A stretch of DNA of 64,000 nucleotides from a virus. Position numbers and translations under genes: made by a program. A model generated the notes under the pieces. The model did no database searches and was not told where the DNA came from. It was given only the letters and a program-made list of their open reading frames with translations. Positions 452 to 62,739 of this stretch are shown here, piece by piece (the stretch's first letter is position 1; each line of letters opens with the position of its first letter). The stretch is from positions 44,581 to 108,580 of the IMG/VR virus record IMGVR_UViG_3300028827_000102, one strand, 5' to 3'.

Positions 452-468
452 TCCTACTAAATGTTAAG
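452..468 (-). promoter_or_regulatory. Putative late-promoter motif, copy 1
   Basis: Read on the minus strand the site is CTTAACATTTAGTAGGA, matching the motif [C/A]TTAA-NN-TTTAGTAGRA found at seven other places in the window. It overlaps the stop codon of the gene at 464-1273 and ends 35 bases before the ATG at 416, leaving room for a short leader with the ribosome-binding site. Promoter function is inferred from recurrence and position only. Confidence 0.5.
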
Positions 469-1273
469 ATGTAGAGCTAATAAAATCTGGAGGTGTTATG
501 TTATGTTTTTCTAATAATGCGCGTAATTCTGCCGAATTCAGTCCTAAAGCATTATTCAGCTTTCGTTTCCCATGAAAGCTAGTTATTGCAATTTCAAGTA
601 ATTTCTTTGTAGGGATGCCGAATTCAGATTCTAATCTAAGCTCACTGGGACGTTTGTGTTTGAAACACGACTGACTGCAATAAACAAATCCGTCAGTAAG
701 TTTATAGATATTACCTGTATTTCCACAAACCGAACAACCTGTATCGTATATTTTTACCGTATCTGCAGCAGCATCTGAAGCGGCTTTGCGAAGAGCCAAT
801 TTTTGTAATTTTGTTATAGCGGAGTTTGTTATTCTTCTAAATTGCGCTTGTGTGATACCTAACAAAAAACGTATCTCATTTACATCTAAATCCTGTTTGT
901 TTTGGCTATATATGTAACGTATTATACAGTTTCCTGTCCATCTATTCATTGTATGAAACATGCACGACGAAACTGTACATGGTACATATATATCTAAATC
1001 TATTTCGGTACATTTAAATGGTTTTACATCTTCTAGACTGTAAACACCTGGGTCTGGGAGATATGCGCCTATGTATTCTAATACAGTTTCTACCGAAGCC
1101 GGGCTAATGGCTTCTCCTATATACTGCAATCTAGACAGCAACTCGAAGCACGGACCAGATTTTGTACACGTTTGAATAGTGTCATTTCTTTTGGATAGCT
1201 TTTCAACAAGTTTACTTACACTTGTACATATGTCGGTAAACTCACAGCGCATATCTCCCAGACCACCTGACAT
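464..1273 (-). CDS. Cysteine-rich regulator with sigma region-4-like helix-turn-helix
   Basis: 269 residues. Around residues 130-160 the segment DVNEIRFLLGITQAQFRRI followed by a basic helix resembles the helix-turn-helix of sigma-factor region 4 or a related transcription regulator. Further on, CSVCGNTG...YCSQSC is a four-cysteine zinc-knuckle-like motif, and more cysteines occur near residues 85-110. It follows the gene at 1281-2000 closely. The start at 1273 has a weak ribosome-binding site; the ATG at 1252 is an alternative. A role as a phage transcription factor is an inference from the HTH plus zinc motif. It could equally be another kind of DNA-binding protein. Confidence 0.6.
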   Translation of the reverse strand: MSGGLGDMRCEFTDICTSVSKLVEKLSKRNDTIQTCTKSGPCFELLSRLQYIGEAISPASVETVLEYIGAYLPDPGVYSLEDVKPFKCTEIDLDIYVPCTVSSCMFHTMNRWTGNCIIRYIYSQNKQDLDVNEIRFLLGITQAQFRRITNSAITKLQKLALRKAASDAAADTVKIYDTGCSVCGNTGNIYKLTDGFVYCSQSCFKHKRPSELRLESEFGIPTKKLLEIAITSFHGKRKLNNALGLNSAELRALLEKHNITPPDFISSTS

Positions 1274-1280
1274 GGTTTAA

Positions 1281-2000
1281 CTATAGATCATCAAGATCTA
1301 GATCGTCGTCAGACCACGGTAAATCGTCCAGGTCGTCATCATTCTCGTCAGCATCATCAAGATCAAAGTCATCCAGGTCATTCAAATCGTCGTCATCTTC
1401 TGTATTATTGTCATCGGCATCATCGAGATCAAGTTCATCTAGATCATCATTGTCTTCATCTAAGCCAAAATCGTCCGAGTCAGCAGCATCGCTTTCGTCT
1501 GCCTTGGTTTTTGCGTCCGAATTACTACCCTGATCAGACACATCATTAAAATCCAAATCGTCCAAATCATCCAGATCATCTATGCCCAAACCATCATCGT
1601 CGTCCAATACCAAATTTGTCTGACTGTCCTTTTTGTTTACATTCTTTTCGTCGTCTTTCTTCTTTGCCTCTTCATCGTCCTTCTTCGCCTTACGCTTACG
1701 TCCACGCTTACCCTTGGTCTTCTTCTCCTGCTCTTCCTCATCCTTCTTCGCTTTACGCTTACGTCCACGCTTACCCTTGGTCTTCTTTTCGGTTTTCTCA
1801 GCCCTTTCTTCCTTTTTCTCTGTTTCTACCCTAACATTCTCCTCTACCAACGCAGGAGCAGGCGAAATAGGAAAAGTATATATCTTTACACCTTCTCCAA
1901 TGTCACCAGAAATGGTAAACATTGCGTCTTTTACTGCTACTACCTTGCCTTTTGTAAGTAGTGTTTCTACCTGACTAGAAGACAAAACAATCATAGACAT
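1281..2000 (-). CDS. Low-complexity protein with basic repeats and acidic tail
   Basis: 239 residues with three parts. The first is a short N-terminal domain of about 60 residues rich in beta-strand residues. The second is a lysine/arginine-rich segment with two near-identical 21-residue repeats centred on KGKRGRKRKAKK. The last is a roughly 100-residue tail made mostly of Asp, Leu and Asn that ends in DLDLDDL. The basic repeat is AT-hook-like (RGRK core), and acidic tails of this kind occur in phage ssDNA-binding proteins, where they recruit partners. Binding to nucleic acid is therefore plausible but unproven. The start is supported by GGAGGT ten bases upstream. Confidence 0.65.
   Translation of the reverse strand: MSMIVLSSSQVETLLTKGKVVAVKDAMFTISGDIGEGVKIYTFPISPAPALVEENVRVETEKKEERAEKTEKKTKGKRGRKRKAKKDEEEQEKKTKGKRGRKRKAKKDDEEAKKKDDEKNVNKKDSQTNLVLDDDDGLGIDDLDDLDDLDFNDVSDQGSNSDAKTKADESDAADSDDFGLDEDNDDLDELDLDDADDNNTEDDDDLNDLDDFDLDDADENDDDLDDLPWSDDDLDLDDL
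1678..1787 (-). repeat. Two tandem 63-bp repeats inside the acidic-tail gene
   Basis: Two copies of about 47 matching bases (1678-1724 and 1741-1787), differing at one position, are offset by 63 bases. The offset equals 21 codons, so the duplication keeps the reading frame. It encodes the doubled KGKRGRKRKAKK block. Confidence 0.8.
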
Positions 2001-2012
2001 GAAATACCTCCA

Positions 2013-14279: not shown

Positions 14280-14296
14280 CTTATTTTTTAGTAGAA
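14280..14296 (+). promoter_or_regulatory. Putative late-promoter motif, copy 2
   Basis: The site reads CTTATTTTTTAGTAGAA and ends 13 bases before the ATG of the SWIM-type protein at 14310. One base in the first half (CTTAT instead of CTTAA) differs from the consensus. Spacing to the start is the same as for copy 4 before the response-regulator gene. Confidence 0.5.
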
Positions 14297-14309: not shown

Positions 14310-14915
14310 ATGCCAATAACAAAAAAATTTGATATACCGCAACTCACACTAAAACATATACTAAAATATTCAAATGTGAGTCCTGTTAAAAGTACAAGCG
14401 GACAGCGACTTAAATCGCCCGCGTCTAGAGTGTCTGAATGTACCTTGATATCTCATCAATATAGTACAGGTTCGCGCGATGGTTTCAGACGAACTAGACA
14501 TAAATATCCTACCATGTACAACGAATTTCGCGGTCTTGTACGTTGCAGCGGAAGCGGTAAGAAACGTTACACATATATCCGTTTCTATGGGCCTCCATCT
14601 CTAGACACTCCTGTTTGGGTGTGGTGTAGCTGTGAACATTTTGCTTACACCTATGAATGGGTTTTAGCAAAATATAAATCCAGTACTATTAGTGCGGGAT
14701 ACAATTCTGTAGGTGTGTCGATACGCCCAGAACCGCCACAAATACGTAACCCAAATAAGTACCCAGGAGCGTGCAAGCATATATTGCTAAGTGCCAAATA
14801 TGCTTTGACCAAAAAGGACCTTATAGAGCAAAGGGAAGCATATGTGGCGGATCTGAAGCGGGCACGCCGCAATAAGATTTTACAGCGTGCCCGCCCCATC
14901 AAGCTTATCCGTTAA
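14310..14915 (+). CDS. SWIM-type zinc-finger protein
   Basis: 201 residues. A C-x-C...C-x-H pattern, VWCSCEHFAYTYEWVL followed after about 35 residues by YPGACKHILLSAKYAL, matches the SWIM zinc-binding motif known in several DNA-associated proteins and in many phage proteins. N- and C-termini are very basic (ADLKRARRNKILQRARPIKLIR), consistent with nucleic-acid binding. It is one of only two plus-strand genes in the replication half and is preceded by the putative late-promoter motif. It may therefore belong to the late set, for example packaging or head assembly, but no specific role can be read off. Confidence 0.75.
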   Translation: MPITKKFDIPQLTLKHILKYSNVSPVKSTSGQRLKSPASRVSECTLISHQYSTGSRDGFRRTRHKYPTMYNEFRGLVRCSGSGKKRYTYIRFYGPPSLDTPVWVWCSCEHFAYTYEWVLAKYKSSTISAGYNSVGVSIRPEPPQIRNPNKYPGACKHILLSAKYALTKKDLIEQREAYVADLKRARRNKILQRARPIKLIR

Positions 14916-18298: not shown

Positions 18299-18964
18299 TC
18301 ACTTTGATACCCTTGGCAACATCATTTCGGGTACCCATTGACGTTTCTTTGCCTCCATATCTAAAATCGGATCGTAGTTACCTGACAAATTTTGATATAA
18401 TTCAGATTTGCTTGTAAGCATAAAACTTATTTGAGCTATTCTTGCTCCTACCAACAATACAACTACATGATATTTACTAGTATTTGTTATCTCCATGGTC
18501 CATCTGTTGCAATATCCATGATCTCCCCAACCACCGGAACCACACACATCCAAAAAATTACGTACAGTGGTAGACCTACTATGCATTTCTGGAATAATGG
18601 TATTACAAGCAGATCCGATGAATTCTTCGGTATGGGCAAGAATCATAGATCTAGGAGGAATAAAAATAACTTTATCTTCACCATCTAATCCATCTAAATA
18701 TCTTTCATCAACTGTTGATAAAGATATTAGATCTTTTACTTTTGCTGCTTTTCCTTTGCGCCATACACTACCAATCGATTTAGCACTGTAAGGATTGTAT
18801 ATGTTCATCATCTTAGAATCTTTATCGGGTATTTGTTCATACCAAAAATGTTCTCCCAGGCGCACATCATAGCTAGCGCTGGTGACACAACTTTGGTCAT
18901 AAGGTTCTATTATAATCATACCCGCTTTATATGCTTCTATGATCTGATCATGTACTAATAGCAT
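18299..18964 (-). CDS. dcd: dCTP deaminase / dUTPase family protein
   Basis: 221 residues. The motif EMHSRSTTVRNFLDV followed by GWGDHGYCNRWTMEITN matches the active-site region of the Dcd/dUTPase trimer family (S-R-S-x-x-x-R...G..D.G..G..T.E..N). SASYDVRLGE near the N-terminus is also typical. The length is slightly above the roughly 190 residues of dCTP deaminase. It would deaminate dCTP to dUTP or handle dUTP, supplying thymidylate precursors and limiting uracil. The start overlaps the end of the topoisomerase A gene by 17 bases. Confidence 0.85.
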   Translation of the reverse strand: MLLVHDQIIEAYKAGMIIIEPYDQSCVTSASYDVRLGEHFWYEQIPDKDSKMMNIYNPYSAKSIGSVWRKGKAAKVKDLISLSTVDERYLDGLDGEDKVIFIPPRSMILAHTEEFIGSACNTIIPEMHSRSTTVRNFLDVCGSGGWGDHGYCNRWTMEITNTSKYHVVVLLVGARIAQISFMLTSKSELYQNLSGNYDPILDMEAKKRQWVPEMMLPRVSK

Positions 18965-21134
18965 AATATACTTTTACTTCCTTTCTTTTTATTGCTGAGA
19001 TTGTATCTGATAAGCTTAATACTTTTCTTTTTCCATCTAAAAATACCACAAAATTCTTATTTCCTGCGACTGACAAATTCTTTCTTGTGGTTATTGATAA
19101 CTGTTCGACCCTTCTACCATTATCGGATAATAACACATTTCCAGGAGAAAGTACAAGCACTTTCTTTACATCGGATCTACCGATCCTTTTAGGAAGAACA
19201 TTTGGTCTCGTTACTTTTAGATTAGAGACTTCCGTTTTTATTATTCTTCCATTCTTACATATTATTAATATAGTGTCTTCATCGTTTACACCCACAGCAA
19301 ACAAAGGATTATCGTCTTTTTTGAACGCCTTAAATATTTTTCGTCGTTGGTCTGAAGGAAACAAAACATAATTGCGCGTTGACAACACTAAGCAATATTT
19401 TTTTGTACTAATACCAACTATTGATCCAGGTTGCTTTTCATATCTGTCAGCATATGATGTGTCTAAAACAGACACTATATTAGTGTCGTACACAACAACG
19501 GCTCTTTCACTTGCCTTCTCAAAAGATGTATAAGACCATGCTGCTTTTGTGTTTGTAGGTATTTCTTTAAAAACAGATACTGTTTCTTGTCCTGCTCCCA
19601 CCCAATACTGTATGTTTTCTATGGTAGAAATAGACACAGGTTTAACGCATAGCTTGGTGCCGCGTTTCTTTCCTAAAGGTTTTATCTCAAGTAAGTGTCT
19701 CTTGATGACATCATCAATATTAGCCAAATCTTCACGCAAAGCATTGATTTTTTGCTTTGTTTTCTTTATTTCACTTACTATTTTATCTATATCTGAACGC
19801 AGTAATGTAGAAATATTTGCATTTAGTATTATATCGGCCTGTTGTTTTGTTACACCAAGGTTTGTACATAACGACTCAATTGCATCTGTTTTGCCCTCGG
19901 CTGTCTGTAATATTTTCACCACTTCTTTAGCATGTTTAGCTGCTTTGTATTTAGCTATCTGTGTTGCTAGTAATTTACGTTGCGCCAAGATAGACCGTGT
20001 GAGTCTGCCAGACTCAATCTCACGCCTAAATACAATAAATTCTACAAGAAGGGAACGTAAATTATATTTTTTTGGTTTACCGTTTATATCTAAACAATAC
20101 CATTTGTACGAAATTTTACTGTCCAGAAGAGGAAGTATCCTGTCTTTTACCGCTCTACCATCAGAAAATTTTATTGTAAATCTTTGTCCGTTTTCTAACG
20201 TGGTTTCGTCAGTAATCGGACTATCTATTAATCCAGCCTTGAAGCAGCTTATTGATGTGTCTAACAACTTAGATCTGCGTCCACGCATTTCTGGCGCAAA
20301 AGCGGTTATCACCAATAGTTGCTCATCGTCATTAGTTTCTATATGATACTCAGACGAATAATGTAACGATCCCTCTCCTGTTTCATATAAACGTAACAGA
20401 TCCCCTTCAGACGACAACAATACGCCAGAACCGTAATCTGGTCCTTTTATAAATTTCAACAGATCTTTAGTAGTAGCATCGGGATTATCTATAAGATGAC
20501 AACAAGCATCTATAACTTCATGTAAATTATGTGGAGGTATGTTAGTAGATAAACCTACAGCTATACCGTCTGTCCCCTTTATAAGGGATAAAGGTATTCT
20601 GACAGGAAGGATAACGGGTTCATCTAACGTAGCGTCGTAGTTTTTTGTCTTCTGTACTATATCTATATCAATAAACAACGACTCTGCTAATTTTGATAAT
20701 CTGCATTCAGTGTATCTGCTACTAGCCGCCGGTCTCTTTTGATAAGACGAAAAATCTCCAAAATTGCCGTCTGGTATTATAAGCCGGTCTTTGTCATGAG
20801 CCAGTAACACCAAAGCTTGATACACTGCTGCATCGCCGTGTGGATGATATTTACCTATCGTTTCTCCTACTATTCTTCCACTTTTTACAGGAGGCCGGGA
20901 AGACAGAGCATTTAGATTATACATAGCCCATAAAATACGTCGCACGCTGGGCTTTAATCCATCTCTGGCATCTGGAAGGGCTCTGTTTTCTATAGCATAT
21001 TTACCATATTCTACAATACAGTCTTTTACTATTTCTTGAGTAGATTTAAACGTTACATTTCCATCCTTTCCAGCTGTTTTAGTTTTTCGTCCAAGTCTGC
21101 CAGTTGGCGTTCTATTTCTTTTTTTGGTACCCAT
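18948..21134 (-). CDS. Type IIA topoisomerase subunit A (GyrA/ParC-like)
   Basis: 728 residues. This is the DNA-cleaving subunit. GLKPSVRRILWAM, GKYHPHGDAAVYQALV and the catalytic tyrosine in AASSRYTECRLS (Tyr141) are present. A coiled coil near residues 400-480 follows, then a C-terminal beta-propeller-like part shorter than in GyrA and without a clear gyrase box. The enzyme may therefore be closer to topoisomerase IV. With the B subunit at 21567-23393 it forms a complete phage enzyme, as in T4-like phages, to relieve supercoils or decatenate DNA. The start at 21134 overlaps the preceding small gene by 82 bases; no later start exists before the conserved domain. Confidence 0.92.
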   Translation of the reverse strand: MGTKKRNRTPTGRLGRKTKTAGKDGNVTFKSTQEIVKDCIVEYGKYAIENRALPDARDGLKPSVRRILWAMYNLNALSSRPPVKSGRIVGETIGKYHPHGDAAVYQALVLLAHDKDRLIIPDGNFGDFSSYQKRPAASSRYTECRLSKLAESLFIDIDIVQKTKNYDATLDEPVILPVRIPLSLIKGTDGIAVGLSTNIPPHNLHEVIDACCHLIDNPDATTKDLLKFIKGPDYGSGVLLSSEGDLLRLYETGEGSLHYSSEYHIETNDDEQLLVITAFAPEMRGRRSKLLDTSISCFKAGLIDSPITDETTLENGQRFTIKFSDGRAVKDRILPLLDSKISYKWYCLDINGKPKKYNLRSLLVEFIVFRREIESGRLTRSILAQRKLLATQIAKYKAAKHAKEVVKILQTAEGKTDAIESLCTNLGVTKQQADIILNANISTLLRSDIDKIVSEIKKTKQKINALREDLANIDDVIKRHLLEIKPLGKKRGTKLCVKPVSISTIENIQYWVGAGQETVSVFKEIPTNTKAAWSYTSFEKASERAVVVYDTNIVSVLDTSYADRYEKQPGSIVGISTKKYCLVLSTRNYVLFPSDQRRKIFKAFKKDDNPLFAVGVNDEDTILIICKNGRIIKTEVSNLKVTRPNVLPKRIGRSDVKKVLVLSPGNVLLSDNGRRVEQLSITTRKNLSVAGNKNFVVFLDGKRKVLSLSDTISAIKRKEVKVYYAIST

Positions 21135-21566: not shown

Positions 21567-23393
21567 TTATACATTAAGCAATAACTTACGTACACCAACA
21601 TCATCTCCCATGTACGAAATAACCGCATCTTGCGTGCGATCATCCCAAACTACATCCAACACTTTTCTGGTTTTACTATTCATAGCATAGTCCTGCAATT
21701 CCTGTGGATTCGACTCACCCAAACCTTTAAATCTGCGTATCACCACCTTTTCTTTTGGAAGAAATGCTTTGTTCACTTCTTCTATAGAGTCTCCGTAAAC
21801 ACGTTTTTTACCAGAGACACCCATAAACAATGGATTTTGTATCACTGCCACTTTTCCGGCTTTTATTATATCCGGAACATAAACGACAAACAAGGATAAA
21901 AGCAGCGCTACTATATGTCTTCCGTCTGGATCAGCGTCAGCAAGCAAGTATATCTTACTATACCTGCACTTGTCAAGAGAAAACGAGCGACCTACACCAG
22001 TACCTATCGCAGTAAACAAATCACGTACCACCTCATTTTTTGTTACAATATCCATATTTGAACTACGTGCCGCATTAGGTAATTTTCCTCTTAATGGATA
22101 CACTTCCTGAAAATGTACCATTCTGTTGTTAACTTTTCTCATCAACCTAGCTTTAGTGACTATACCTTCAGCACTATCACCTTCACAAATAAACAGTTCT
22201 CTAAATTTATCTGGACAATCAGGTGCTTCAATCAATTTGCCAGGTAATATACCAGATGCACCCTTTTTTACTTTTACACTTTTTATTGCTGTACGTTCTG
22301 CCAAATATTTCTTTTTTGCTGATGCTACACTTTTCGCTATGGCTACGATTGATTCCAGATACTGTTTATTTTTTACCCAATATTTTACTAGAAAATCATT
22401 GGCCTGTTGGTAAATACTATCATAGATATCTTTGTTCTCAAGCCTTGTCTTGGTTTGCCCTCTAAATTGTGGGTTTGTTACTCTTGCGTGTATGACAGCT
22501 ATTATACCTGTACGTATATAATTTCCTTTTATTTTTGTACCAGCAACAGTATTTATACTGTCTTGAATTGCTTTTTTAAGGCCAGATACATGAGTACCAT
22601 GATCTGGTGTATTTACAACATTAACAAAACTATTCCAATCTTCTCCCTCCCCAATAGTCCAGGCAAACACAGCCTCAAAATCATTAGATTTTATCTCTAT
22701 ATATTTATCATTTACTACATCTACTTTTGGTAAAATATCACACAAGCTATTTTCAGAAAATGATTCGTGTTTATCATCTACTAATAAGTCTATTCTTAAT
22801 CCTGGACATAGACAAGAAATAGTATACAACCAATCTCTTATTCTGTTTATATCCCAACGGGCATCTCCGAATACATCAACATCAGGAACAAATCTAACCA
22901 ATGTACCCTTTCGTAGTTTTTTCTTACTGTGATGTATTTTTCTGTGTACTTTACCCCGTACAAAAGATATATGCCACGTAGCAGATCTTCTATTTGTCCA
23001 AACATCAAAACTGGACGATAACGCATTTACAGCCTTCACACCTATACCATGTAAACCTACAATAGCCCCCGTATATGCACCTTTGCCAAATTTGCCGCCA
23101 GCATGAAGTCTAGAAAACACTGCCTCTAATGTTGACACACCTGCTTTTGGATGTTTAGATATAGGTATTCCACGTCCGTTGTCGTATATTTCTGCAGTAT
23201 TGCTTCTTGTATCTATTTTTATTTTTATTTTCGTTACATATTTATCAAGATATTCATCGATGGCATTATCAACCACTTCCCGTAAAAGATGGTGCATACC
23301 ATCAATATCGGTGCTACCGATATACATATGCGGTCTTTTGCGTATATGCTCAAGACCCTCCAGTATTTGTATATCTTTTGACGAGTAACTCAT
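21567..23393 (-). CDS. Type IIA topoisomerase subunit B (GyrB/ParE-like)
   Basis: About 608 residues from the ATG at 23393, which shares its A with the upstream TGA (TGATG). This ATPase subunit has GHKL motifs near the N-terminus: GLEHIRKRPHMYIGS, EVVDNAIDEYLD, IYDNGRGIPI and GLHGIGVKAVNALS. The TOPRIM domain shows ELFICEGDSAEG and LLADADPDGRHI (D-x-D). The C-terminus ends soon after TOPRIM, as in ParE and in T4-like enzymes, without the GyrB-specific insert. It pairs with the A subunit downstream. Confidence 0.92.
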   Translation of the reverse strand: MSYSSKDIQILEGLEHIRKRPHMYIGSTDIDGMHHLLREVVDNAIDEYLDKYVTKIKIKIDTRSNTAEIYDNGRGIPISKHPKAGVSTLEAVFSRLHAGGKFGKGAYTGAIVGLHGIGVKAVNALSSSFDVWTNRRSATWHISFVRGKVHRKIHHSKKKLRKGTLVRFVPDVDVFGDARWDINRIRDWLYTISCLCPGLRIDLLVDDKHESFSENSLCDILPKVDVVNDKYIEIKSNDFEAVFAWTIGEGEDWNSFVNVVNTPDHGTHVSGLKKAIQDSINTVAGTKIKGNYIRTGIIAVIHARVTNPQFRGQTKTRLENKDIYDSIYQQANDFLVKYWVKNKQYLESIVAIAKSVASAKKKYLAERTAIKSVKVKKGASGILPGKLIEAPDCPDKFRELFICEGDSAEGIVTKARLMRKVNNRMVHFQEVYPLRGKLPNAARSSNMDIVTKNEVVRDLFTAIGTGVGRSFSLDKCRYSKIYLLADADPDGRHIVALLLSLFVVYVPDIIKAGKVAVIQNPLFMGVSGKKRVYGDSIEEVNKAFLPKEKVVIRRFKGLGESNPQELQDYAMNSKTRKVLDVVWDDRTQDAVISYMGDDVGVRKLLLNV

Positions 23394-23491
23394 CACACTC
23401 TCGTAAAAGAGCCTAAAATATACACCATGAACAAAGATGTGATGACAATCAAGAGCACTGAGAACATGGTTTCTTTTACTGCATTATCCAT
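23393..23491 (-). CDS. Very small membrane protein
   Basis: A frame ending at 23393 codes for one clear transmembrane helix (FSVLLIVITSLFMVYILGSF) with short charged ends. The longest frame starts at 23584 but would overlap the polymerase gene by 109 bases. The ATG at 23491 (32 residues) keeps the overlap to 16 bases, and the ATG at 23527 is also possible. The stop overlaps the topoisomerase B start as TGATG, which favours real translation. Function unknown. Confidence 0.45.
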   Translation of the reverse strand: MDNAVKETMFSVLLIVITSLFMVYILGSFTRV

Positions 23492-37520: not shown

Positions 37521-37533
37521 GCTACCATTAAAC

Positions 37534-37550
37534 ATTAAGGTTTAGTAGGG
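37534..37550 (+). promoter_or_regulatory. Putative late-promoter motif, copy 3
   Basis: The site reads ATTAAGGTTTAGTAGGG and ends 25 bases before the ATG at 37576, with AAGAGG between them as ribosome-binding site. It would drive the packaging operon (terminase, portal). Confidence 0.55.
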
Positions 37551-37801: not shown

Positions 37802-38410
37802 ATGAATTTTATCGATGAAGTAAGAGATAGACTATTGTTACGTTTTCCTCGTACAGCTATAAAAGAAAGAATAAAAGGAACTGACACAATAATAGAATAC
37901 ATCGTGAAGATTCCTAAGAATGACGAGTCCGTCATTACGGATGTTATACACGAGGTTGAACCTATATTTCCCTGGTTGAATATAAAAACTAAAAGAACTA
38001 AAAAGGGTGCAGTAAAAATAACTGCTGAGCCAAAAACCGACGACATACCAAGAAGTACAGATCAGGTGAGACCCATCCCAATTACTTTTTACGTTGGAGA
38101 TGATGTAATAAGTCTTGCAATGGATGGCGATACATTTGCAATTCTCAAAAACGGAGATATTCTGGAAACCGATTTTCCCAGTCCGGGTTTTGCTTTAGGC
38201 GCAATGGTAAAATATGTAGCCGAAAGCATGATATCTCTGGAAAATGATGGATCTATACCTAGCAGCCCAAACAGTGATCTTGTTGCCGGTATGGCAGAAC
38301 TGCTGGTAGATCTTCCTGACGTAAGCAAAGAAGCGAAAAACCATTTCATAAAATTCTACGAAATGGTAACATTAAAAGATTTCGCATCTACCGTGAAAAA
38401 TGAAGATTAG
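37802..38410 (+). CDS. Hypothetical protein
   Basis: 202 residues. Two halves can be seen: an alpha/beta domain of about 85 residues with several lysines, then a second part containing VISLAMDGDTFAILKNGDILE, whose strand pattern resembles the small protein before it. It overlaps the following gene by 11 bases. Function unknown. Confidence 0.6.
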   Translation: MNFIDEVRDRLLLRFPRTAIKERIKGTDTIIEYIVKIPKNDESVITDVIHEVEPIFPWLNIKTKRTKKGAVKITAEPKTDDIPRSTDQVRPIPITFYVGDDVISLAMDGDTFAILKNGDILETDFPSPGFALGAMVKYVAESMISLENDGSIPSSPNSDLVAGMAELLVDLPDVSKEAKNHFIKFYEMVTLKDFASTVKNED

Positions 38411-44162: not shown

Positions 44163-44355
44163 TGTCTTCCAAGCTCCTTAGTACAAGACGATAGGTTCTG
44201 TCTTCTATTACTGTGTCTACGTGTTCGTCGTCTACGTTTTCTCTAGACCATTCCAAGTCTCTCCCGGTGGCTTTCCACCCGTTTTCTGTTTCCTGAATTT
44301 GTATTCGTGTGCTTAGCCACACCTTTCCGCGTTTTACTTTTACTATTCCTTTCAT
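44155..44355 (-). CDS. Small hypothetical protein
   Basis: 66 residues, beta-rich and charged. A good ribosome-binding site (GGAGATTGAAAA) precedes the ATG. It forms a two-gene unit with the HD hydrolase. Function unknown. Confidence 0.55.
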   Translation of the reverse strand: MKGIVKVKRGKVWLSTRIQIQETENGWKATGRDLEWSRENVDDEHVDTVIEDRTYRLVLRSLEDND

Positions 44356-44389
44356 TTTTCAATCTCCTTCTAAAATTACAACGAAGCGG

Positions 44390-44406
44390 ATTAATTTTTA
44401 GTAGAA
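44390..44406 (+). promoter_or_regulatory. Putative late-promoter motif, copy 4
   Basis: The site reads ATTAATTTTTAGTAGAA and ends 13 bases before the ATG of the response-regulator gene, with AAAGGGG immediately following as ribosome-binding site. It sits in a 64-base divergent gap. Confidence 0.55.
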
Positions 44407-44419
44407 AGGGGAAAATTTC

Positions 44420-44953
44420 ATGTGTTATGTTATTCCAGTTTCTGTTTTGTGTATAGAAGATAATTCTGGCGTAGCAGAAGTCATCAAGCAGCTACTTATC
44501 TATTCTAAAGCCAGACTAAAGTACCGCAATGTACCAACACTAAAGATAGCTCTTCGGGAACTAAAGAAGCACAAGTTTGACATAATTTTGTTAGATCTGA
44601 AGCTACCTGATTCTGTTGGTACAGACACGTATCGTGCAATAGCAGAGGCAACGGATTTGCCGGTAATAGTTATTACCGGAACAGCGTCAGAAGAAGAAAG
44701 ACAAAAAATTTTAGAAATGGGGGCAAAGGATTGTATTCGTAAGGATGAAATTACTTCTGACAATTTATGGCGAGCCATTCGATACGTATTGATAGAAAAA
44801 CTCCATGAGGAAGAGATAGCTAATGTAATGAAGGAAATAAAAGAGATAAAGGAACACGTACGTCTGGCCTTTGCCAAGATCCATGCAGTGACAGATCGGT
44901 TAGACAACATCATGCTACCTTTTTCTTCCAACGATGACGCCACGCAGAAATAG
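44420..44953 (+). CDS. Response-regulator receiver-domain protein
   Basis: 177 residues. The CheY-like fold is complete: acidic pair E13-D14 (CIEDN), phospho-acceptor Asp59 (ILLDLKLPDS), threonine 86 (VITGTAS) and lysine 108 (CIRKD). No DNA-binding or enzymatic output domain follows, only a helical, probably coiled-coil tail of about 60 residues. Such a single-domain regulator could take phosphate from host kinases or act as a decoy in host signalling. It stands alone behind a putative late promoter and its 3' end overlaps a convergent gene by 44 bases. I see no partner kinase. Confidence 0.85.
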   Translation: MCYVIPVSVLCIEDNSGVAEVIKQLLIYSKARLKYRNVPTLKIALRELKKHKFDIILLDLKLPDSVGTDTYRAIAEATDLPVIVITGTASEEERQKILEMGAKDCIRKDEITSDNLWRAIRYVLIEKLHEEEIANVMKEIKEIKEHVRLAFAKIHAVTDRLDNIMLPFSSNDDATQK

Positions 44954-46085
44954 GTATGGGCGGTCCTCTAGACGGGCGGGAGCGCATTCTGTAGTCTAAA
45001 AAGGACTGTGGCGGCTCTGTTTCTTCCAAGTGTCGGTATCTGGTTAAAGGTCGGTCGTACAGACTGATACCTTGTCCACTTCTAGCATATTTTTGGATAC
45101 TCTTCCATATTACCGGAAAATAGCGGCTACCATCATAGCCAAATAGGTCACACAACCCAACGCTTAGTATTTTTCGCAAAGGTTCGGCCAATGGAGTACG
45201 GATGAACCACGTTTTAGCCACTCTTCTAGCGCTGGCATAGTCGTAAGCTGGCTCCATTCCTTCTATTTTTGACAGTTTTTTATAGTAGTAGAAAGCCTTT
45301 TTGTACCTTGCATTGCTACGGAGCTTGTCTTCTCTGAAAGCTACGTGAAAGACCATGTAAAACGGGCTTTTGGCTGCGGTATTATTTATTATTTTCTTTA
45401 AGTCTGAGAAACGGACGCTTCTTGTTTGACCTAAGATAGCTTTCAGTCGTTTGTGTCGGCATACTACTTCAATTCGGCATACCATGTCTTCTGGGTTCAT
45501 AAGGTCTGGGTCTACATAGTATTCTCTTCTCTTTTTAAGTGTTTCTTCTTGCTTGTCGTAGATACGTACTGGGCCTTTACCCTTCAGTTTGCCATATCTC
45601 TTCCAGTTTCTATGTCTGGTACCGGTATGAGTTCTTACAAAATGACGGTTAACTAGGGGAAGAAGGTCCGGACGGTTCTCTGGAGTAAGAAAATCAACAA
45701 AGAAATCACATCTTACCATTATTAGTAGGTCCAAAGAAGGACACTTCACTACTCGGTTAATGGCCGCTAACAGTTCTTCCTGTGTTACATAACGTTCTGT
45801 TAATTTTCTTATTCTTATGTAGGCTCTGTCTAGAACACGGGAGTAGTATAATGTTAATGGTGCAAAGTCTTTGTCATACGTGTTCCATACACCCTTGTAC
45901 ATACCTTTCGGGTATATGTTATATACACGGAATATGTCTACTTCCGGATGTAACTTCGTCTTCCGTACAACGTATCCCCCTTTTCTGTAAGAATTACGGT
46001 AAAGCATAGACTTATGGCGTAAAGGAAACCGGTTAAGGTTTACCTCAAAAAGTATGTCGTCTATGCCGGATAAGACTGGTTTCAT
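44910..46085 (-). CDS. Possible rolling-circle-type replication initiator
   Basis: 391 residues from the ATG at 46085; a GTG at 46151 would add 22. The protein is very basic. Segments LIMVRCDFFVDF, VRIYDKQEE and CRIEVVCR follow each other in the manner of replication initiators of the phage gene II/X and Rep_trans groups (strand, then Y-D-K, then an R-x-E strand). No second catalytic tyrosine or HUH motif is obvious, so activity is uncertain. It borders a 370-base intergenic region with repeats that could be an origin. It might instead be an unrelated DNA-binding protein. Neither start has a good ribosome-binding site. Confidence 0.4.
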   Translation of the reverse strand: MKPVLSGIDDILFEVNLNRFPLRHKSMLYRNSYRKGGYVVRKTKLHPEVDIFRVYNIYPKGMYKGVWNTYDKDFAPLTLYYSRVLDRAYIRIRKLTERYVTQEELLAAINRVVKCPSLDLLIMVRCDFFVDFLTPENRPDLLPLVNRHFVRTHTGTRHRNWKRYGKLKGKGPVRIYDKQEETLKKRREYYVDPDLMNPEDMVCRIEVVCRHKRLKAILGQTRSVRFSDLKKIINNTAAKSPFYMVFHVAFREDKLRSNARYKKAFYYYKKLSKIEGMEPAYDYASARRVAKTWFIRTPLAEPLRKILSVGLCDLFGYDGSRYFPVIWKSIQKYARSGQGISLYDRPLTRYRHLEETEPPQSFLDYRMRSRPSRGPPIPISAWRHRWKKKVA

Positions 46086-46500: not shown

Positions 46501-46517
46501 CTTAATTTTTAGAGAGG
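46501..46517 (+). promoter_or_regulatory. Putative late-promoter motif, copy 5 (degenerate)
   Basis: CTTAATTTTTAGAGAGG matches the first 12 positions of the motif exactly and then departs (AGAGG instead of TAGRA), merging with the ribosome-binding site of the gene at 46525. It may be a weak or decayed copy. Confidence 0.35.
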
Positions 46518-46524: not shown

Positions 46525-47298
46525 ATGTCTAAACCAGAGAAAGAGCTTGAGCGTTTGTTGCGTGTTGTACTTCCTGGGACTGAATTTGAGCATCGTGTTT
46601 TTGCGGTGGGTGGATATGTTCGTGATGAGTTACTGGGCGAAGAGGCTCATGATTTAGATGTAGTGGTGGAGATGCAATACGGTGCTCAACGGTTTGGTGA
46701 ATTTCTTGTAGACTTTTTTGGTGACGAAATTGTATTGGGGCCGATACCCCTTAGTTTACGGTATCCGGTATGGCGTGTCAAGTTTGCCGATGACGTATTA
46801 GTCGGTAATAATGTATATGGCACTAAGGGGGCTTATTTAGACATGGCGGACACTCAATCTGTAGTAGACGGTACATACTCTTTATTCGGTCCGCTGAGCG
46901 ATGATTTTCGCAGGCGTGATTTTACCGTAAATATGGTATTTAAGGATCTCACCGATGGTACATTGGTCGATCCTTCTGGTTTGGGTTTGGCTGATATAGA
47001 GCGAGGTATACTACGCACATTACCAAGCTACAATGAGCATGAAGACCTTGTTGCGAACCCAAAGAAGATTCTCAGGGCTATACGTTTTGCACTTAAGTAT
47101 GATTGGGGACTAGAGCCGTCTTTAGTGGAGACGATTAAACAGTCCGAGGACGTCATAAGTAGCATTGATGCTAAAGCGATCCGTAGAGAGCTACGAAAAA
47201 TAAGGGACGATGGCAATTTGACTAAAGCCGTCGGTATGTTTAAGGAGCTTGGTTTATGGGACGCTATACTAAAGACGTTAAGTGCAAGCGAGCACTAA
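46525..47298 (+). CDS. cca: CCA-adding / poly(A) polymerase-type nucleotidyltransferase
   Basis: 257 residues. Class II tRNA nucleotidyltransferase motifs are visible: FAVGGYVRDELLG, HDLDVVV (catalytic D-L-D, residues 43-45), RRDFTVN, VDPSGLGLADIERGILRT and NPKKILRAIRFALKY. The C-terminal body domains are shorter than in bacterial CCA enzymes, which usually exceed 400 residues. It would repair or add CCA ends of tRNA, or add A tails. No tRNA gene occurs in this window. The last six bases (CACTAA) are part of the first 51-bp tandem repeat. Confidence 0.88.
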   Translation: MSKPEKELERLLRVVLPGTEFEHRVFAVGGYVRDELLGEEAHDLDVVVEMQYGAQRFGEFLVDFFGDEIVLGPIPLSLRYPVWRVKFADDVLVGNNVYGTKGAYLDMADTQSVVDGTYSLFGPLSDDFRRRDFTVNMVFKDLTDGTLVDPSGLGLADIERGILRTLPSYNEHEDLVANPKKILRAIRFALKYDWGLEPSLVETIKQSEDVISSIDAKAIRRELRKIRDDGNLTKAVGMFKELGLWDAILKTLSASEH

Positions 47299-47936
47299 AG
47301 CGGACGTTTCTCTTTAGTGGCACCAGACTAAAGGGACAACAGGCACTAAAGCGGACGTTTCTCTTTAGTGGCACCAGACTAAAGGGACAACAGGCACTAA
47401 AGCGGACGTTTCTCTTTAGTGGCTTCTTGTTGTCTTTAGTGGTCTCGTGTCCACCTAAGCGTTATCCGATATACTTCCTTAATGTCACTTCGTATAAGGT
47501 GTATACAGATCGTGTGACTAAAGACGGAATACGGTTTAGGGTACCATACAACGTAGATGCCGATAAGTTTGCTGTTGCTGTAGATCAAAAAGTACGGGAG
47601 CTGGAAACATGTTTGGGAAAAAAGATTCGTAGGGATTGGTTTGCGGTATTTGTTCCAGATGATTGGTATGTGTCTAAGTGCAGTGGTGAGCAGTTGGTTC
47701 CTAGCAAAGCAGACCCTAAATTATGCAGAACGAAGGGATTGGTGCTGCCTCCGGAGTGTGAGTGGGTAATATATCCCAACGATAAGTGTCCTTGTGTGTG
47801 TAATTTTCGTGCGGTTACTCAGGACAATTATTATATAGTAACAGCGCCCAATCTAAAATTGTTTAAGAATGAGTTAGCTAGCATAGTATTGAATAACAGA
47901 AACTTGTGGGTGACAGAGTGGGCGAAGTGTTTATAA
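47256..47936 (+). CDS. Lipoprotein with tandem-repeated signal region
   Basis: 226 residues in the open frame, overlapping the nucleotidyltransferase gene by 43 bases. The N-terminus has three copies of ALKRTFLFSG (period 17 residues). Only the last runs on into a full signal peptide with lipobox (FLLSLVVSC). The mature part of about 160 residues has eight or more cysteines, several in pairs (CPCVC), and an ordered beta-rich core. The ancestral gene probably had one ALKRTFLFSG unit, later multiplied. There is no start codon inside the repeats in this frame, so translation should begin at the ATG at 47256. Function unknown; it is probably exported to the cell surface. Confidence 0.6.
   Translation: MGRYTKDVKCKRALKRTFLFSGTRLKGQQALKRTFLFSGTRLKGQQALKRTFLFSGFLLSLVVSCPPKRYPIYFLNVTSYKVYTDRVTKDGIRFRVPYNVDADKFAVAVDQKVRELETCLGKKIRRDWFAVFVPDDWYVSKCSGEQLVPSKADPKLCRTKGLVLPPECEWVIYPNDKCPCVCNFRAVTQDNYYIVTAPNLKLFKNELASIVLNNRNLWVTEWAKCL
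47293..47421 (+). repeat. 51-bp tandem repeats, each with an inverted repeat
   Basis: Two and a half copies of a 51-base unit start at 47293, 47344 and 47395. Each unit contains CACTAAAG, 11 bases, then CTTTAGTG, a perfect eight-base inverted repeat (arms 47293-47300/47312-47319, 47344-47351/47363-47370, 47395-47402/47414-47421). The period is 17 codons, so the lipoprotein frame is kept. The stop codon of the preceding gene lies in the first arm. Confidence 0.9.
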
Positions 47937-48921: not shown

Positions 48922-49161
48922 TTGTCTAATTTAACCGAATCAAATAGGAATTTGTTATTATCAGAATTGCGTAGACTTAATTTACGCATGACTGAGCTAG
49001 AGATGCAGCTTACTTCGGTCCGTTCTGATATGGTATCTCTTGAATCTGCTTTTTGTGAACTTAAATCGGCCATGTCTGAAATAGAACAAATAGATGTAAT
49101 AAAATTAGCAATTGCAGCTTTGGAGACAGAAATAAACAAGTTAGTCACCAAACTAACTTAA
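48922..49161 (+). CDS. Small coiled-coil protein, TTG start
   Basis: 79 residues. The TTG at 48922 directly follows the preceding TAA and has GAAGGGA seven bases upstream, so it is the likely start. Leucine heptads throughout indicate a coiled coil. Its TAA lies inside the putative promoter motif at 49157-49173. Function unknown. Confidence 0.55.
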   Translation: MSNLTESNRNLLLSELRRLNLRMTELEMQLTSVRSDMVSLESAFCELKSAMSEIEQIDVIKLAIAALETEINKLVTKLT

Positions 49162-49173
49162 TATTTAGTGGTG
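49157..49173 (+). promoter_or_regulatory. Putative late-promoter motif, copy 6
   Basis: CTTAATATTTAGTGGTG, one of the weaker copies (GTGGTG instead of GTAGRA), 24 bases before the ATG at 49198. TTTAGTGG also occurs inside the tandem repeats at 47293-47421. Confidence 0.4.
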
Positions 49174-49197: not shown

Positions 49198-49590
49198 ATG
49201 GCTAATTGGAATAGAGTATGGTCTTCTCAGTGCAATAATTCGTGTTCAACGGATTGTTTTAATATACGTGGACCATCTGATGTATCCAGCGGTAAGCCTA
49301 CTGCTTTTGATGGTCTCACCACTAATATAACTTCTTTGGCTGATGTGACGGCTTTTTATGCCGAGGAAATAAAAAAGAGAACCAGCGCTAGCAGATATGT
49401 AATAACAGGAACAACCAGCACGTCATTTGTTGTTGTATTTAAGATACACAGACAAAATGACAAAATACTGACCATACAATATAGTAGTGCTGAAGGAACA
49501 ATGCCGGTGGCTGTCACATTTTCCGGTGGTTATTCTGCTAATATTTATAGTATGACCCAGATGGTAGATTGGGTTGTCGATAAAATGTAG
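49198..49590 (+). CDS. Hypothetical protein
   Basis: 130 residues. Four cysteines in the first 25 residues (QCNNSCSTDCF) are followed by a beta-rich, Ser/Thr-rich body. It is placed just before the scaffold-like gene, so it may be a minor virion protein. Function unknown. Confidence 0.55.
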   Translation: MANWNRVWSSQCNNSCSTDCFNIRGPSDVSSGKPTAFDGLTTNITSLADVTAFYAEEIKKRTSASRYVITGTTSTSFVVVFKIHRQNDKILTIQYSSAEGTMPVAVTFSGGYSANIYSMTQMVDWVVDKM

Positions 49591-54495: not shown

Positions 54496-55281
54496 ATGGC
54501 AATTCAACCAGTAGGAAGCGTTCGGTCGAAGTACGACCTCACGCGATCCCGCTTCCAGTTTCGTGATGAGTACGAACTGGTATCGGGGACAAATCTGACT
54601 GAGGAAGGTCAGTGGATGATCGCGGGCGGGTCGTCAAGCCAGCAAGTGACCACATCTGCTGGTAGTGCCAATGAGGTACCCATGGGGGCAGCTCTTATGG
54701 GTAAGATTCTTGGTGCTACTTTTACCAACTATGAAGAGGGGACGGTTCCCGCTTCTCCAGGTCCATATACCTATACCTTAGAGTATAGTAACCTTGTTAC
54801 CAACTCTTACACCAGTCTGGCGGATGCCTATATCTACGACACCACAGCTGGTAGTGAGGTTGGTGTAGCAGGTAGCGTTTCTAGCGGTAATGCGACTGTA
54901 AACGTATCGACGGGCGTGGTTACTTTCCACAGTGACGAGGCCGGTCATGAGTTTTACATTCGTTATCGCTTCAATTTAACAGTGGCACAGGCTCGTGCCA
55001 TTTTGAAGCAGTCTGCGGTAGGTGCTGGCAGCGAAGACACCTTTTCTAAGGTATTCGTCGGTCGTGGACACTGTGTGATTTACACAACCATGTTCGACTG
55101 CGATGCTGCTTGGGTACTGAATCAGCAGACATTTGCTGCTGCTAGCGGTAACCCTGTATTGGGAGCCGGTGGCGTGTTGACTATTTACGACAACAACAAT
55201 GCCGGTACTCGTTTTGGTCGTGTTGTGTCGCTTCCGTCCACAGACGACCCGTACCTCGGCGTAGAGTACGAGACCCCATAA
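54496..55281 (+). CDS. Capsid-operon structural protein, possible head decoration protein
   Basis: 261 residues, rich in Gly, Ala, Ser, Thr and Val and almost free of charge clusters. It has a strong ribosome-binding site. Codon choice shifts here to C-ending and GC-richer codons, as in the next gene, which signals very high expression. Directly upstream of the likely major capsid protein, it is best explained as a decoration or other abundant head protein. It could also be a tail tube protein. Confidence 0.55.
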   Translation: MAIQPVGSVRSKYDLTRSRFQFRDEYELVSGTNLTEEGQWMIAGGSSSQQVTTSAGSANEVPMGAALMGKILGATFTNYEEGTVPASPGPYTYTLEYSNLVTNSYTSLADAYIYDTTAGSEVGVAGSVSSGNATVNVSTGVVTFHSDEAGHEFYIRYRFNLTVAQARAILKQSAVGAGSEDTFSKVFVGRGHCVIYTTMFDCDAAWVLNQQTFAAASGNPVLGAGGVLTIYDNNNAGTRFGRVVSLPSTDDPYLGVEYETP

Positions 55282-55299: not shown

Positions 55300-56403
55300 A
55301 TGAAGTTCAAGTTTGTTGATAAGCAAGGACAAGACATCTCCCAGGGGCCTAAGTACTGGCGTACTCGTTCCGGAAAGTTCGAGGCAACAGACACGCCTCT
55401 GGTAGATAAACACGGTAACTACAATGCTACGTCCAAAAAGGACCTTATTGAGACCGTAGCCACCATCGTAGCTATGCTGCAGTCCGGTGATCTTCAGCAC
55501 GAGTCCGAGCCGGATGTAAACGAGAAGGCTGCTCTTAATAAGCTGGTAGAGGCTGCTCTTGGCGATCCATCTGAACGGGGCGGGGCTTTCGAGCGTCTCG
55601 GTCAGGTTTTCGTAGATGTAGTCTCCGAGACCATGGGACGTCAGGCGTTTACTGATAAGATCATGGCTCAGCTGGACATACCTGAGAGAGGTATTCCAAA
55701 GGTCGAGATCGATCAGTTTGACGTGGTTACTTGGCATATGACCAGTGCTGGTGCTGTAAAGGAAGTGGTATCCAAGCCACGTTTCCACTTCCCTGAAGGC
55801 TTCTGGCTCAATTGTATGCTAGTAATCGAGGAGCAAGATCTACATTTCGCAGGCGAGCAGTTCCTGGAGCGTAAGTATAATACTGCGTTGCAGTCGCTTA
55901 TGGTACGCGAAGATAACGTTACCAAGTTCCTGCTTGATCAGGCAGCTCCTATTGCCAACGATGTTATTTCTTTCTCGGCATTTACACCTGTTGTATTTGC
56001 TCTTCTAAGAGAGCAAGTATGGCAGCATGGGCTTACAGCTACCACAGCGTTGGTATCGGTAGATCTGCAGAATGATATTCTGGCGGATACAGACTGGCAC
56101 AATATCTATTCTCCTGTTGAGAAGCACATTCTTCTCACAGAAGGAAAACTTGGTAGTCTAGCCGGTATCGAAGTATTCACGGATGGTTATCGTATGGACA
56201 CCCTGCGTGTGCTGGATAGCGGTGAAGTATACATGCTTGCCGCTCCCCAGACACTGGGTGTAAAGGGCGTGATGCGTCCGCTATACTCTGATCCCATCAA
56301 CCTGCATGTATTCGGTCGTCCTGCTCGTGGTTGGTTCCTCGGGCAGTACGAGGTGATCGACGTAACCAACCATCGTGCTGTCGCTCGCGGCACGAAGCTG
56401 TAA
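55300..56403 (+). CDS. Probable major capsid protein
   Basis: 367 residues. It is placed after the protease and follows the capsid leader, with the strongest ribosome-binding site in the window (GAGGAGGGATGAAGAA) and the codon bias of an abundant protein. The N-terminal 110 residues are charged and helical (FERLGQVFVDVVSETMGRQAF), like the delta domain or E-loop region of HK97-fold capsids. The rest is mixed alpha/beta. An alternating pattern such as GEVYMLAAPQTLG near the C-terminus fits the P and A domains. It is followed by a terminator. Assignment from context and composition; fold not proven. Confidence 0.7.
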   Translation: MKFKFVDKQGQDISQGPKYWRTRSGKFEATDTPLVDKHGNYNATSKKDLIETVATIVAMLQSGDLQHESEPDVNEKAALNKLVEAALGDPSERGGAFERLGQVFVDVVSETMGRQAFTDKIMAQLDIPERGIPKVEIDQFDVVTWHMTSAGAVKEVVSKPRFHFPEGFWLNCMLVIEEQDLHFAGEQFLERKYNTALQSLMVREDNVTKFLLDQAAPIANDVISFSAFTPVVFALLREQVWQHGLTATTALVSVDLQNDILADTDWHNIYSPVEKHILLTEGKLGSLAGIEVFTDGYRMDTLRVLDSGEVYMLAAPQTLGVKGVMRPLYSDPINLHVFGRPARGWFLGQYEVIDVTNHRAVARGTKL

Positions 56404-60736: not shown

Positions 60737-61428
60737 TGAAGGTTGGCGATAGAATAAAAGAGCTTGGTGGGATTGATTTTGGTTCTGGTGCTGTTGTCGA
60801 GAGCATAGATAACGATATTATTTATCTTAAACTGGATTCTGGCGAACGTATAAAAGTTGATATGTCAGATTTTGGTGCTTCGGTATCTGACGACGACATC
60901 ATACCTGATAATTCTTTTTACGATTCTGACGCTTTACATAGCCCAGAATTACATAATATCAGAAGTTTGCCGTTGTGGTGGGGACCAAGGGATCCTAATA
61001 TGCCAAGCTCGATTACAAGGGTAATATGGCAGCCTATAAATTACATAAATCGTAATTGGCAGAGAAGGTGGGGTATGAATAAAACAGCTTATAGTAATAT
61101 ACGTGTACTGCCGAGACGTATGCGAATAGATAAGTGGGTAGAAGAAAAAGACCATCCTCTTAATACAGAAGATCTGATTGCACTTACAGAAACTTTGTGG
61201 GAAGAATATAAAGATAAACAAAATACGTATTTACCTGAAAGAGGAAAAGCTGGTAGTTTGCCGCTTTATCTATTTGCTATAGCTTTTATGCGTAGACATA
61301 ACCTTTCTCCAGAAGAATTGTTATTATTGTTTGAATTTATGGTTGCTACAGGTCTCATATTGTATACAGAATATCAGTATGTTTTAGATACTATTGACGG
61401 TGCTCTAGCTTATTACTTGGACAAGTAG
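60736..61428 (+). CDS. Hypothetical protein
   Basis: 230 residues. An N-terminal beta-barrel-like domain (GSGAVVESIDNDIIYLKLDSGERI, reminiscent of KOW/Tudor-type folds) is followed by an aromatic linker and a helical C-terminal domain. Function unknown; virion-module context. Confidence 0.55.
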   Translation: MKVGDRIKELGGIDFGSGAVVESIDNDIIYLKLDSGERIKVDMSDFGASVSDDDIIPDNSFYDSDALHSPELHNIRSLPLWWGPRDPNMPSSITRVIWQPINYINRNWQRRWGMNKTAYSNIRVLPRRMRIDKWVEEKDHPLNTEDLIALTETLWEEYKDKQNTYLPERGKAGSLPLYLFAIAFMRRHNLSPEELLLLFEFMVATGLILYTEYQYVLDTIDGALAYYLDK

Positions 61429-61429
61429 T

Positions 61430-62698
61430 ATGCCCAGACCATTCTATCTCAGGAAAGCGGATATAAAAGGAATTGAAAAGGCTAAAGAATCTGGCTACAC
61501 CGATAATGATATAGCTAAAGCTATAGAAGTATCAGAAAAATTGCTAGTATCGGCTGGATTATCTCCCACTGTTGTATCTATAGAAGCAGAAGAAGATGGG
61601 TTAGATGTGCAAATGGCGATAAAATCGCCGTTTAATATAGTTATAACTGTTGATCTGTCGGCAAAGAGACGGAAGATACAAGAATTACAAGCAAGAATTT
61701 GTGATGCGATATATACAGCACATAAAAAAGATATAATTGGTCTGCTTGATGCAATTACGTTTATCATAACCAATAAAATCAGACCAATGGAAAGAATTAA
61801 CCCCGATGATGAAAATATAGAGAAAAATGACGCAAAGGAATGGTTAATTTATACTATTACCACAGACTGGAACAGTTTGGATATTGATATATTTAGCAGG
61901 AATCGATTTATCAGTCAGATGACAGAGGCTTTGTTAAATGATGGTGAATTACCTAATGATGCAGGTAAAGTGGCACCAAAAGACGCGCAAGCAGCGATAG
62001 AGGTGGCACAAAGTTTATCTGACAAGGATTGGGAAGACGTAGTAAAGGAAATAAAAAGTTCTGGAGGTATAGCATACGTACCTACCAAAAAACTAATAGA
62101 TAAAGCAGTGAAAGAACTTACCTCGCATGAGGGTAACATTACAATGTACGATGTAGTGGTTGTAGACGACGAGGTAATGGTAAGTATACCCACAAAGTAC
62201 AGATATGTTTATTACGTTCTTCAACGTACTCCTGGCAATAAAATGAATCCGGTTGATGGTATGTTGGTAGTGTGTGATAGTACAATTCACACCGGACCGG
62301 ATTTAAATAAGATGAAGAAACTTATAACAGTTGCCATAGATCTAGATATAGGAAGAGATAATACACCTAGAAGTGAGATAAATCGTCCTAAACGCCCTGA
62401 CAAGCAGAAAAAAGATACCGTCGATTCGCAACTGCTGGAAAACAGTTTGGTGTTTTATTATAATGCTGACGATAATTCTATAACATATAAGTATAAGTTT
62501 GGTTCTGGAACGATTTCGTTTGATGAATATGCTCGATTGTGGTTCCCGGATAAAGAAACGATGAAATCTAGGTGGTTTACTATGATGCAACAGGGTGGCG
62601 TAAAAGACGCACTCTTAGTACAAGACGGAAAGGTATTCTTGCTAGATTCTGCTACCGGCAAACCTGTCCGTGACCTTGGTTACCTACCTGAAAAATAA
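61430..62698 (+). CDS. Hypothetical protein
   Basis: 422 residues, mixed alpha/beta, with several strongly alternating charged helices. An internal region (YDVVVVDDEVMVSIPTKYRY) and the C-terminal FDEYARLWFPDKETMKSRWF suggest two domains. Starts two bases after the previous gene. Function unknown. Confidence 0.55.
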   Translation: MPRPFYLRKADIKGIEKAKESGYTDNDIAKAIEVSEKLLVSAGLSPTVVSIEAEEDGLDVQMAIKSPFNIVITVDLSAKRRKIQELQARICDAIYTAHKKDIIGLLDAITFIITNKIRPMERINPDDENIEKNDAKEWLIYTITTDWNSLDIDIFSRNRFISQMTEALLNDGELPNDAGKVAPKDAQAAIEVAQSLSDKDWEDVVKEIKSSGGIAYVPTKKLIDKAVKELTSHEGNITMYDVVVVDDEVMVSIPTKYRYVYYVLQRTPGNKMNPVDGMLVVCDSTIHTGPDLNKMKKLITVAIDLDIGRDNTPRSEINRPKRPDKQKKDTVDSQLLENSLVFYYNADDNSITYKYKFGSGTISFDEYARLWFPDKETMKSRWFTMMQQGGVKDALLVQDGKVFLLDSATGKPVRDLGYLPEK

Positions 62699-62722
62699 GC
62701 CATTTCAAAGTCCCTCCTTCTC

Positions 62723-62739
62723 CTTAACTTTTAATAGGA
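62723..62739 (+). promoter_or_regulatory. Putative late-promoter motif, copy 8
   Basis: CTTAACTTTTAATAGGA, 43 bases before the ATG at 62783, in an 84-base gap. One base differs from the consensus core (AATAG for AGTAG). Confidence 0.45.

Follow-up and report, generated by a model that had tools for sequence, protein, structure and literature searches.

The IMG/VR virus contig IMGVR_UViG_3300028827_000102 (108,580 bases) carries, over its 108.6 kb, about 14 copies of a 17-base motif that precedes genes on the same strand and whose invariant core is TTA-N3-T(T/A)TA(G/A). The motif is real, and it probably constitutes a lineage-conserved class of late promoters lacking a -35 element. We consider it rather probable that these late-type promoters are used by the host RNA polymerase together with the RpoD-like sigma factor encoded by the phage itself. 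Contig bases 44581-108580, a stretch of 64,000 nucleotides with a G+C content of 39%, are referred to below as the window, and position numbers are those of the window unless marked as contig. Promoter activity, the transcription start, the sigma factor that reads the motif and the late timing we infer from sequence; the term 'late' is based on the kinds of genes behind the sites and on what is seen in relatives.

Statistics and anatomy of the motif

The initial annotation had listed eight copies of a 17-base string, and motif-like sequence was indeed found at all eight coordinates, on the strand given there and each pointing to the next gene; a further copy on the minus strand (37523-37539) had been missed. 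As a literal string, MTTAANNTTTAGTAGRA, the motif is matched exactly only at 452-468 (minus) and 44390-44406 (plus), with 0 matches expected by chance. The copies at 14280, 37534, 54322 and 62723 differ from it by one base, that at 49157 by three and that at 46501 by four, and the last is consequently absent from the list obtained with three mismatches allowed. At this tolerance 20 matches were found against 15.9 expected, i.e. not above chance, which would agree with a mere chance similarity of AT-rich intergenic DNA. The significance of the motif comes from its position and from the weight matrix, not from the string alone. The matrix derived from the eight sites identified 10 sites scoring at least 18 bits on the whole contig, compared with none in 25 third-order Markov genomes, and 12 sites of at least 14 bits, compared with a mean of 0.5.

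A wider scan, of the kind that the initial annotation had proposed for the complete genome, bore the motif out: in the 44,580 contig bases outside the window, the top five matches to the eight-site matrix (contig 4696-, 36880+, 36855-, 20253- and 8966-) are all followed, at no more than 70 nt, by a same-strand start codon (p about 4e-8, with 3.3% of positions falling in such an upstream zone). De novo expectation-maximisation (EM) recovered TTAattTTTAgtaG as the top motif among 36 upstream regions, and 16 of the 39 core matches on the contig lie upstream of genes, compared with a mean of 4% for permuted control patterns. The held-out test and the Markov controls, together with the orthologous conservation described below, contradict the chance explanation, whose probability we regard as negligible. 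No second promoter-like motif on the contig stood clearly above shuffled sequence.

Alignment of 14 sites revealed that T2, T3, A4, T8, T10 and A11 are invariant, while base 9 is T (once A) and base 12 is G or A; the window consensus is CTTAATTTTTAGTAG. The fixed spacing described initially is invariant as well, but it is best written with three free bases instead of two (TTA-N3-TWTAR). Bases 3-8 conform to the TANNNT pattern of sigma70-family -10 elements (T-12, A-11, T-7), with T3, A4 and T8 present in 14/14 sites; these bases are also invariant in the exact core matches of the relatives, which were selected by that pattern. The conserved stretch after TANNNT lies where a discriminator would be. 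The best TTGACA match at spacers of 15-19 averages 3.07 of 6 positions versus 2.89 at random positions, i.e. there is no -35 element at these spacers, and the initial description of an oriented, -35-less motif located largely before virion and packaging genes stands. At the three sites nearest to a start codon (contig 36855, contig 8966 and window 46501) the 3' end of the motif coincides in part with a Shine-Dalgarno-like sequence; therefore, the simplest reading is a transcription start at about base 15, as these three sites suggest. In the proposed mechanism the motif would be the main recognisable promoter of the late-type (morphogenesis) genes of the phage, a -10 element without a -35, in which T3, A4 and T8 of (C/A)TTAANNTTTAGTAG would correspond to -12, -11 and -7, the conserved TTAG/ATAR that follows would act as the discriminator, and transcription would begin at about base 15.

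Two other roles can be weighed against this anatomy. The conserved block exceeds a normal -10 element in length and takes in downstream bases, which could point not to a core promoter element but to the site of a phage activator that works with host sigma70 as T4 MotA does; this appears quite improbable, as the block approaches start codons to within 3-7 nt, leaving no room for a downstream -10, and neither a -35 nor another -10 is conserved beside it. Marginally less probable still is a leader RNA element serving as a processing or translation signal: its orientation, its vicinity to start codons and the Shine-Dalgarno overlap at three sites would suit such a signal, but motif-to-start distances span 3 to 157 nt, the sites of the divergent pair 37523/37534 overlap, and the block has the TANNNT form of a -10. 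Gene starts were predicted with a simple purpose-written caller, and all such distances could shift slightly.

The genes behind the sites (Table 1) include terminase, portal, head and connector genes. Nearly all sites are intergenic, as claimed initially, except that the copies at 452-468 and 49157-49173 share bases with the stop codon of the gene before them and that contig 4696 lies in a predicted open reading frame (ORF). The claim that no copy precedes the replication operons is mostly right, with the qualification that the newly found site 37523 (minus) heads a minus-strand run of unknown genes which has the DNA polymerase and topoisomerase genes at its far end, more than 11 kb on. No convincing family name was found for the 509-aa protein encoded by the first gene behind this site. 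The response-regulator receiver protein (44420-44953), directly behind one of the two exact copies, has a homologue in the relative G006 (see below), and a perfect 51-base tandem repeat (47292-47423, 2.6 copies, containing TCTTTAGTGGCACC) lies just after the nucleotidyltransferase gene.

Table 1. Motif copies and proteins discussed in the text (contig coordinates where marked)
Feature	Position	Strand	Remarks
Motif CTTAACATTTAGTAGGA	452-468	-	35 nt before 262-aa gene starting at 416 (contig 44208-44996); exact match, matrix score 24.0
Motif CTTATTTTTTAGTAGAA	14280-14296	+	13 nt before 14310-14915, divergent from sigma gene
Motif CTTAATGTTTAATGGTA	37523-37539	-	82 nt before 35911-37440; overlaps 37534 head to head
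Motif ATTAAGGTTTAGTAGGG	37534-37550	+	Heads terminase/portal operon (37576 onward); terminase and portal by PHROG
Motif ATTAATTTTTAGTAGAA	44390-44406	+	13 nt before response-regulator gene (Pfam Response_reg); exact match
Motif CTTAATTTTTAGAGAGG	46501-46517	+	7 nt before 46525-47298 (CCA-type nucleotidyltransferase, Pfam PolyA_pol); 3' end doubles as Shine-Dalgarno
Motif CTTAATATTTAGTGGTG	49157-49173	+	24 nt before 49198-49590
Motif CTTAAATTATAGTAGAA	54322-54338	+	157 nt before 54496-55281 (virion structural, PHROG 16710); adjoins major head gene 55300-56403 (PHROG 2522)
Motif CTTAACTTTTAATAGGA	62723-62739	+	43 nt before 62783-63991 (weak tail-fibre PHROG match)
Motif, outside window	contig 4696, 8966, 20253, 36855	-	Matrix matches
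Motif, outside window	contig 36880	+	Matrix match
RpoD-like sigma factor, 453 aa	12908-14269	-	Pfam sigma70 regions 2 and 3; homologues in G002, G006
Cys-rich protein, 269 aa	464-1273	-	Conserved in G006, G002; low-confidence structure model

Conservation of the core in related phages

The window encodes a large terminase, portal, head protease, major head protein, DNA polymerase, topoisomerase II, ATP-dependent DNA ligase and the RpoD-like sigma factor. Among named phages the terminase matches mostly those of jumbo phages (NCTB, Motura, PaBG, Yoloswag; 27-30% identity), and it is nearer to those of other IMG/VR contigs (51-64%). One of these, IMGVR_UViG_3300018080_000098 (G006), has 349,793 bases and homologues of 78 predicted proteins of our contig, largely in conserved blocks; our contig therefore probably represents only part of a larger genome.

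The exact 17-mer CTTAANNTTTAGTAGRA was found in 49 stretches over all viral contigs, one copy each and never several in one contig, which is about the chance level; therefore, the full string is not widespread. Among the phages compared, the complete motif was seen in this one only, and what recurs at orthologous positions of IMG/VR relatives is a reduced core. For the relatives this core was restricted to letters seen at the window sites, TTA-N3-T(A/T)TA(A/G). Among 22 orthologs of site-bearing genes, 4 have it in the 150 nt upstream, as against none of 117 other orthologs (p = 5e-4, this and the other conservation p-values being approximate, with small numbers and relatives that share ancestry). 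A 300-nt version (9/22 versus 0/117) is not relied on, as four of its cases are coding-sequence matches. In G006, 7 of 16 core matches are upstream of genes, versus 11% for the controls, of which 1 in 40 reached as much. Motif discovery by EM alone in the small fragments G002-G005 gave nothing clear.

Individual cases illustrate this conservation. In G006 the core precedes three orthologs, those of contig genes 8419, 36932 (with weak similarity to head-tail connectors) and 80491, the last being window 35911-37440 behind site 37523, where the distance is 45 nt. In G002 the ortholog of 37802-38410, a gene of the terminase operon, has it at a distance of 15 nt, and the leader divergent from the sigma gene carries it too, before a 45% identical homologue of 14310-14915. 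The ortholog of 49198-49590 has the core 28-37 nt before its start codon in five relatives (four exact matches and one with one mismatch), and the three spacer bases vary among them. In G005 the ortholog of 54496-55281 has the core 284 nt ahead of its predicted start.

A conserved TTA-NNN-TATAR sequence, located in the relatives about 2 kb upstream of the protease gene, was considered as the ortholog of site 49157 and rejected, as it lies within coding sequence. There, a Leu-x-Tyr is coded TTA-NNN-TAT in 7/7 cases (L127:6718, L128:7918, L130:7024, L131:7936, L133:7726, L136:7916 and L138:7731), while in the three relatives checked Leu is written TTA in about 5% of cases and Tyr is written TAT in about 20%. 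Perhaps this TTA-NNN-TAT is a promoter embedded in the gene.

Sigma factor and other promoter-like classes

The sigma factor announced in the initial annotation was confirmed by its Pfam matches and by Foldseek, in which the best matches of its AlphaFold model (confident only in parts, including regions 2-3) are E. coli sigma70 chains. It has no Pfam match to region 4; its profile comparison with RpoD shows a gap in the 4.2 helix-turn-helix, and its C-terminus is modelled with low confidence. The Yoloswag sigma gp237 showed no detectable similarity to the profile of the window sigma. The protein encoded at 464-1273, initially taken for a second region-4-like factor, has no Pfam, PHROG or significant PDB match and was dropped as a candidate. 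Families Rpb1 and Rpb2 were found in none of four related contigs including this one and G006, with controls positive in 14/14 genomes, although the contigs may be incomplete and Pfam can miss divergent phage subunits; a search for a T7-like single-subunit polymerase gave no match, and control genomes likewise gave none. The preferred reader of the motif would be the host core RNA polymerase with the phage RpoD-like sigma, a protein without recognisable region 4.

The relatives exhibit further single-element classes. In Yoloswag, PaBG, NCTB, RHph_I42, Motura and GR7B, (T/C)GTAAA(T/A) (hereafter the GTAAA class) is enriched on the sense strand upstream of genes; its form in G006 and G005 is CTTGTAAAATA, with 17 exact copies in G006 (15 intergenic) and no conserved -35 at these sites. 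In most of the same six phages (G)CTAATTT-like words are also sense-strand-enriched, at sites including tail sheath and endolysin genes. According to orthology to annotated Yoloswag genes, the GTAAA class lies upstream of 35 of 102 replication genes versus 1 of 94 virion genes, and (G)CTAATTT upstream of 3 replication versus 5 virion genes (two-by-two table, p = 3e-4, a comparison among related phages with a data-driven choice of words). The GTAAA class precedes none of the homologues of site-bearing window genes, and the window sites precede terminase, head and connector genes; 'late' is therefore favoured for the window motif. A single class comprising both (G)CTAATTT and the window motif is only suggested, the TAATTT hexamer alone being common to the two; for PaBG and Yoloswag we propose two phage-specific classes, a putative late (G)CTAATTT and a putative mid-infection CTGTAAATA. 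G006 CTTGTAAAATA was dropped as a direct counterpart of the window motif, since its sites are mostly non-orthologous and since, in cultured relatives, it is replication genes that the related element precedes.

In the cascade envisaged here, the GTAAA class would make the sigma factor, which would then open the late promoters; this would fit the GTAAA-class site located 67 nt upstream of the G006 sigma gene. On this contig, none was seen upstream of the sigma gene. Several observations weigh against our interpretation: several G006 orthologs of site-bearing genes are without the core, contig site 4696 sits within a predicted 66-codon ORF, some sites precede non-virion genes (response regulator 44420, nucleotidyltransferase 46525) and others precede unknowns, the second single-element class of the relatives could be the target of the sigma instead, and the contig, probably a fragment, may lack other factors. 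The last two points lead to an alternative that we consider unlikely, in which the motif is a phage-specific promoter read by another factor, either a second sigma encoded off the contig or an unrecognised protein, while the RpoD-like sigma serves the (T/C)GTAAA(A)TA class. The two single-element classes in relatives, the second possible sigma reported for PaBG (PMC7412058) and the probable incompleteness of the contig are in its favour; only one sigma was recognised on the contig, however, and no promoter-like motif other than the one described here rises above shuffles there.

AGTAAAA, which may be the form that the GTAAA class takes in this phage, shows a mild enrichment upstream of genes on the contig (8 sense and 3 antisense sites, 1.5 expected). 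It is present ahead of the topoisomerase and DNA polymerase genes, at 18948-21134, 21567-23393 and 23476-26367 on the minus strand. A sigma70-like promoter candidate, TTGACA-N16-TAGTAT (26690-26713, minus strand), also precedes the DNA polymerase gene 23476-26367. In G006 (loci L026-L043) about 50 early-type CTTGACaacGTaAaGT sites with a TGATATT-like -10 occur mainly at 1-38 kb and 297-349 kb, near the contig ends; a large number of them have the palindrome CTTGAC-N4-GTCAAG, which looks like an operator overlapping the -35, and CGTCGGACGGAAAC is found in many of the leaders. A three-tier arrangement in this family of large phages, uncultured and cultured, is a possibility that we put forward tentatively: host-sigma70 early promoters overlapped by the palindromic operator seen in G006, middle (T/C)GTAAA(A)TA promoters for replication and sigma genes, and late TTA-N3-TWTAR promoters for virion genes, the last two being read by phage sigmas that drift in specificity while promoter positions stay.

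Comparison with known phage promoters

The consensus was not found in the literature searched, and neither were the upstream motifs of the six named relatives, which are sense-strand-enriched single elements. T4 late promoters, with which the initial annotation had compared the motif, have the consensus TATAAATA. The likeness extends to a -10-region element without a -35, and does not include the consensus, which is CTTAATTTTTAGTAG in the window. T4-type late promoters are served by gp55, gp33 and gp45 with the host core polymerase, the sigma being without a -35-reading domain (review PMC2988020); in contrast to the very small sigma gp55, the protein encoded here has 453 aa and matches RpoD-like families.

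The middle and late promoters of phiEco32, read by the phage sigma phi32_gp36, consist of a single element, tAATGTAtA, with starts 6-8 bp downstream (PMC8948821). The motif described here shares with them the single element without a -35 and a similar proposed start distance, and phi32_gp36 is without region 4 homology; the sigma encoded here gave no Pfam match to this region. In the distant relative 7-11, similar genome positions carry another consensus (PMC8948821). For a -35-less promoter served by a sigma that has no region 4, phiEco32 is one precedent and T4 gp55 another. The consensus of our motif differs from tAATGTAtA, however, and phiEco32 is a small enterobacterial podovirus, while our phage has jumbo phages as relatives, an RpoD-like sigma with regions 2 and 3, and a promoter that is predicted. 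The jumbo phages phiKZ and AR9 also have phage-specific promoters, read there by phage multisubunit RNA polymerases, of whose Rpb1/Rpb2 families this contig and G006 have no match. The PaBG paper reports a sigma factor and no promoter motif (PMC7412058).

A -35-less promoter kept at orthologous genes while its sequence and the sigma factor diverge would amount to a natural experiment in the co-evolution of sigma and promoter specificity. The motifs would also provide testable promoter maps, and thus a tentative temporal classification, for a large number of unannotated phage genes, those of cultured relatives among them.

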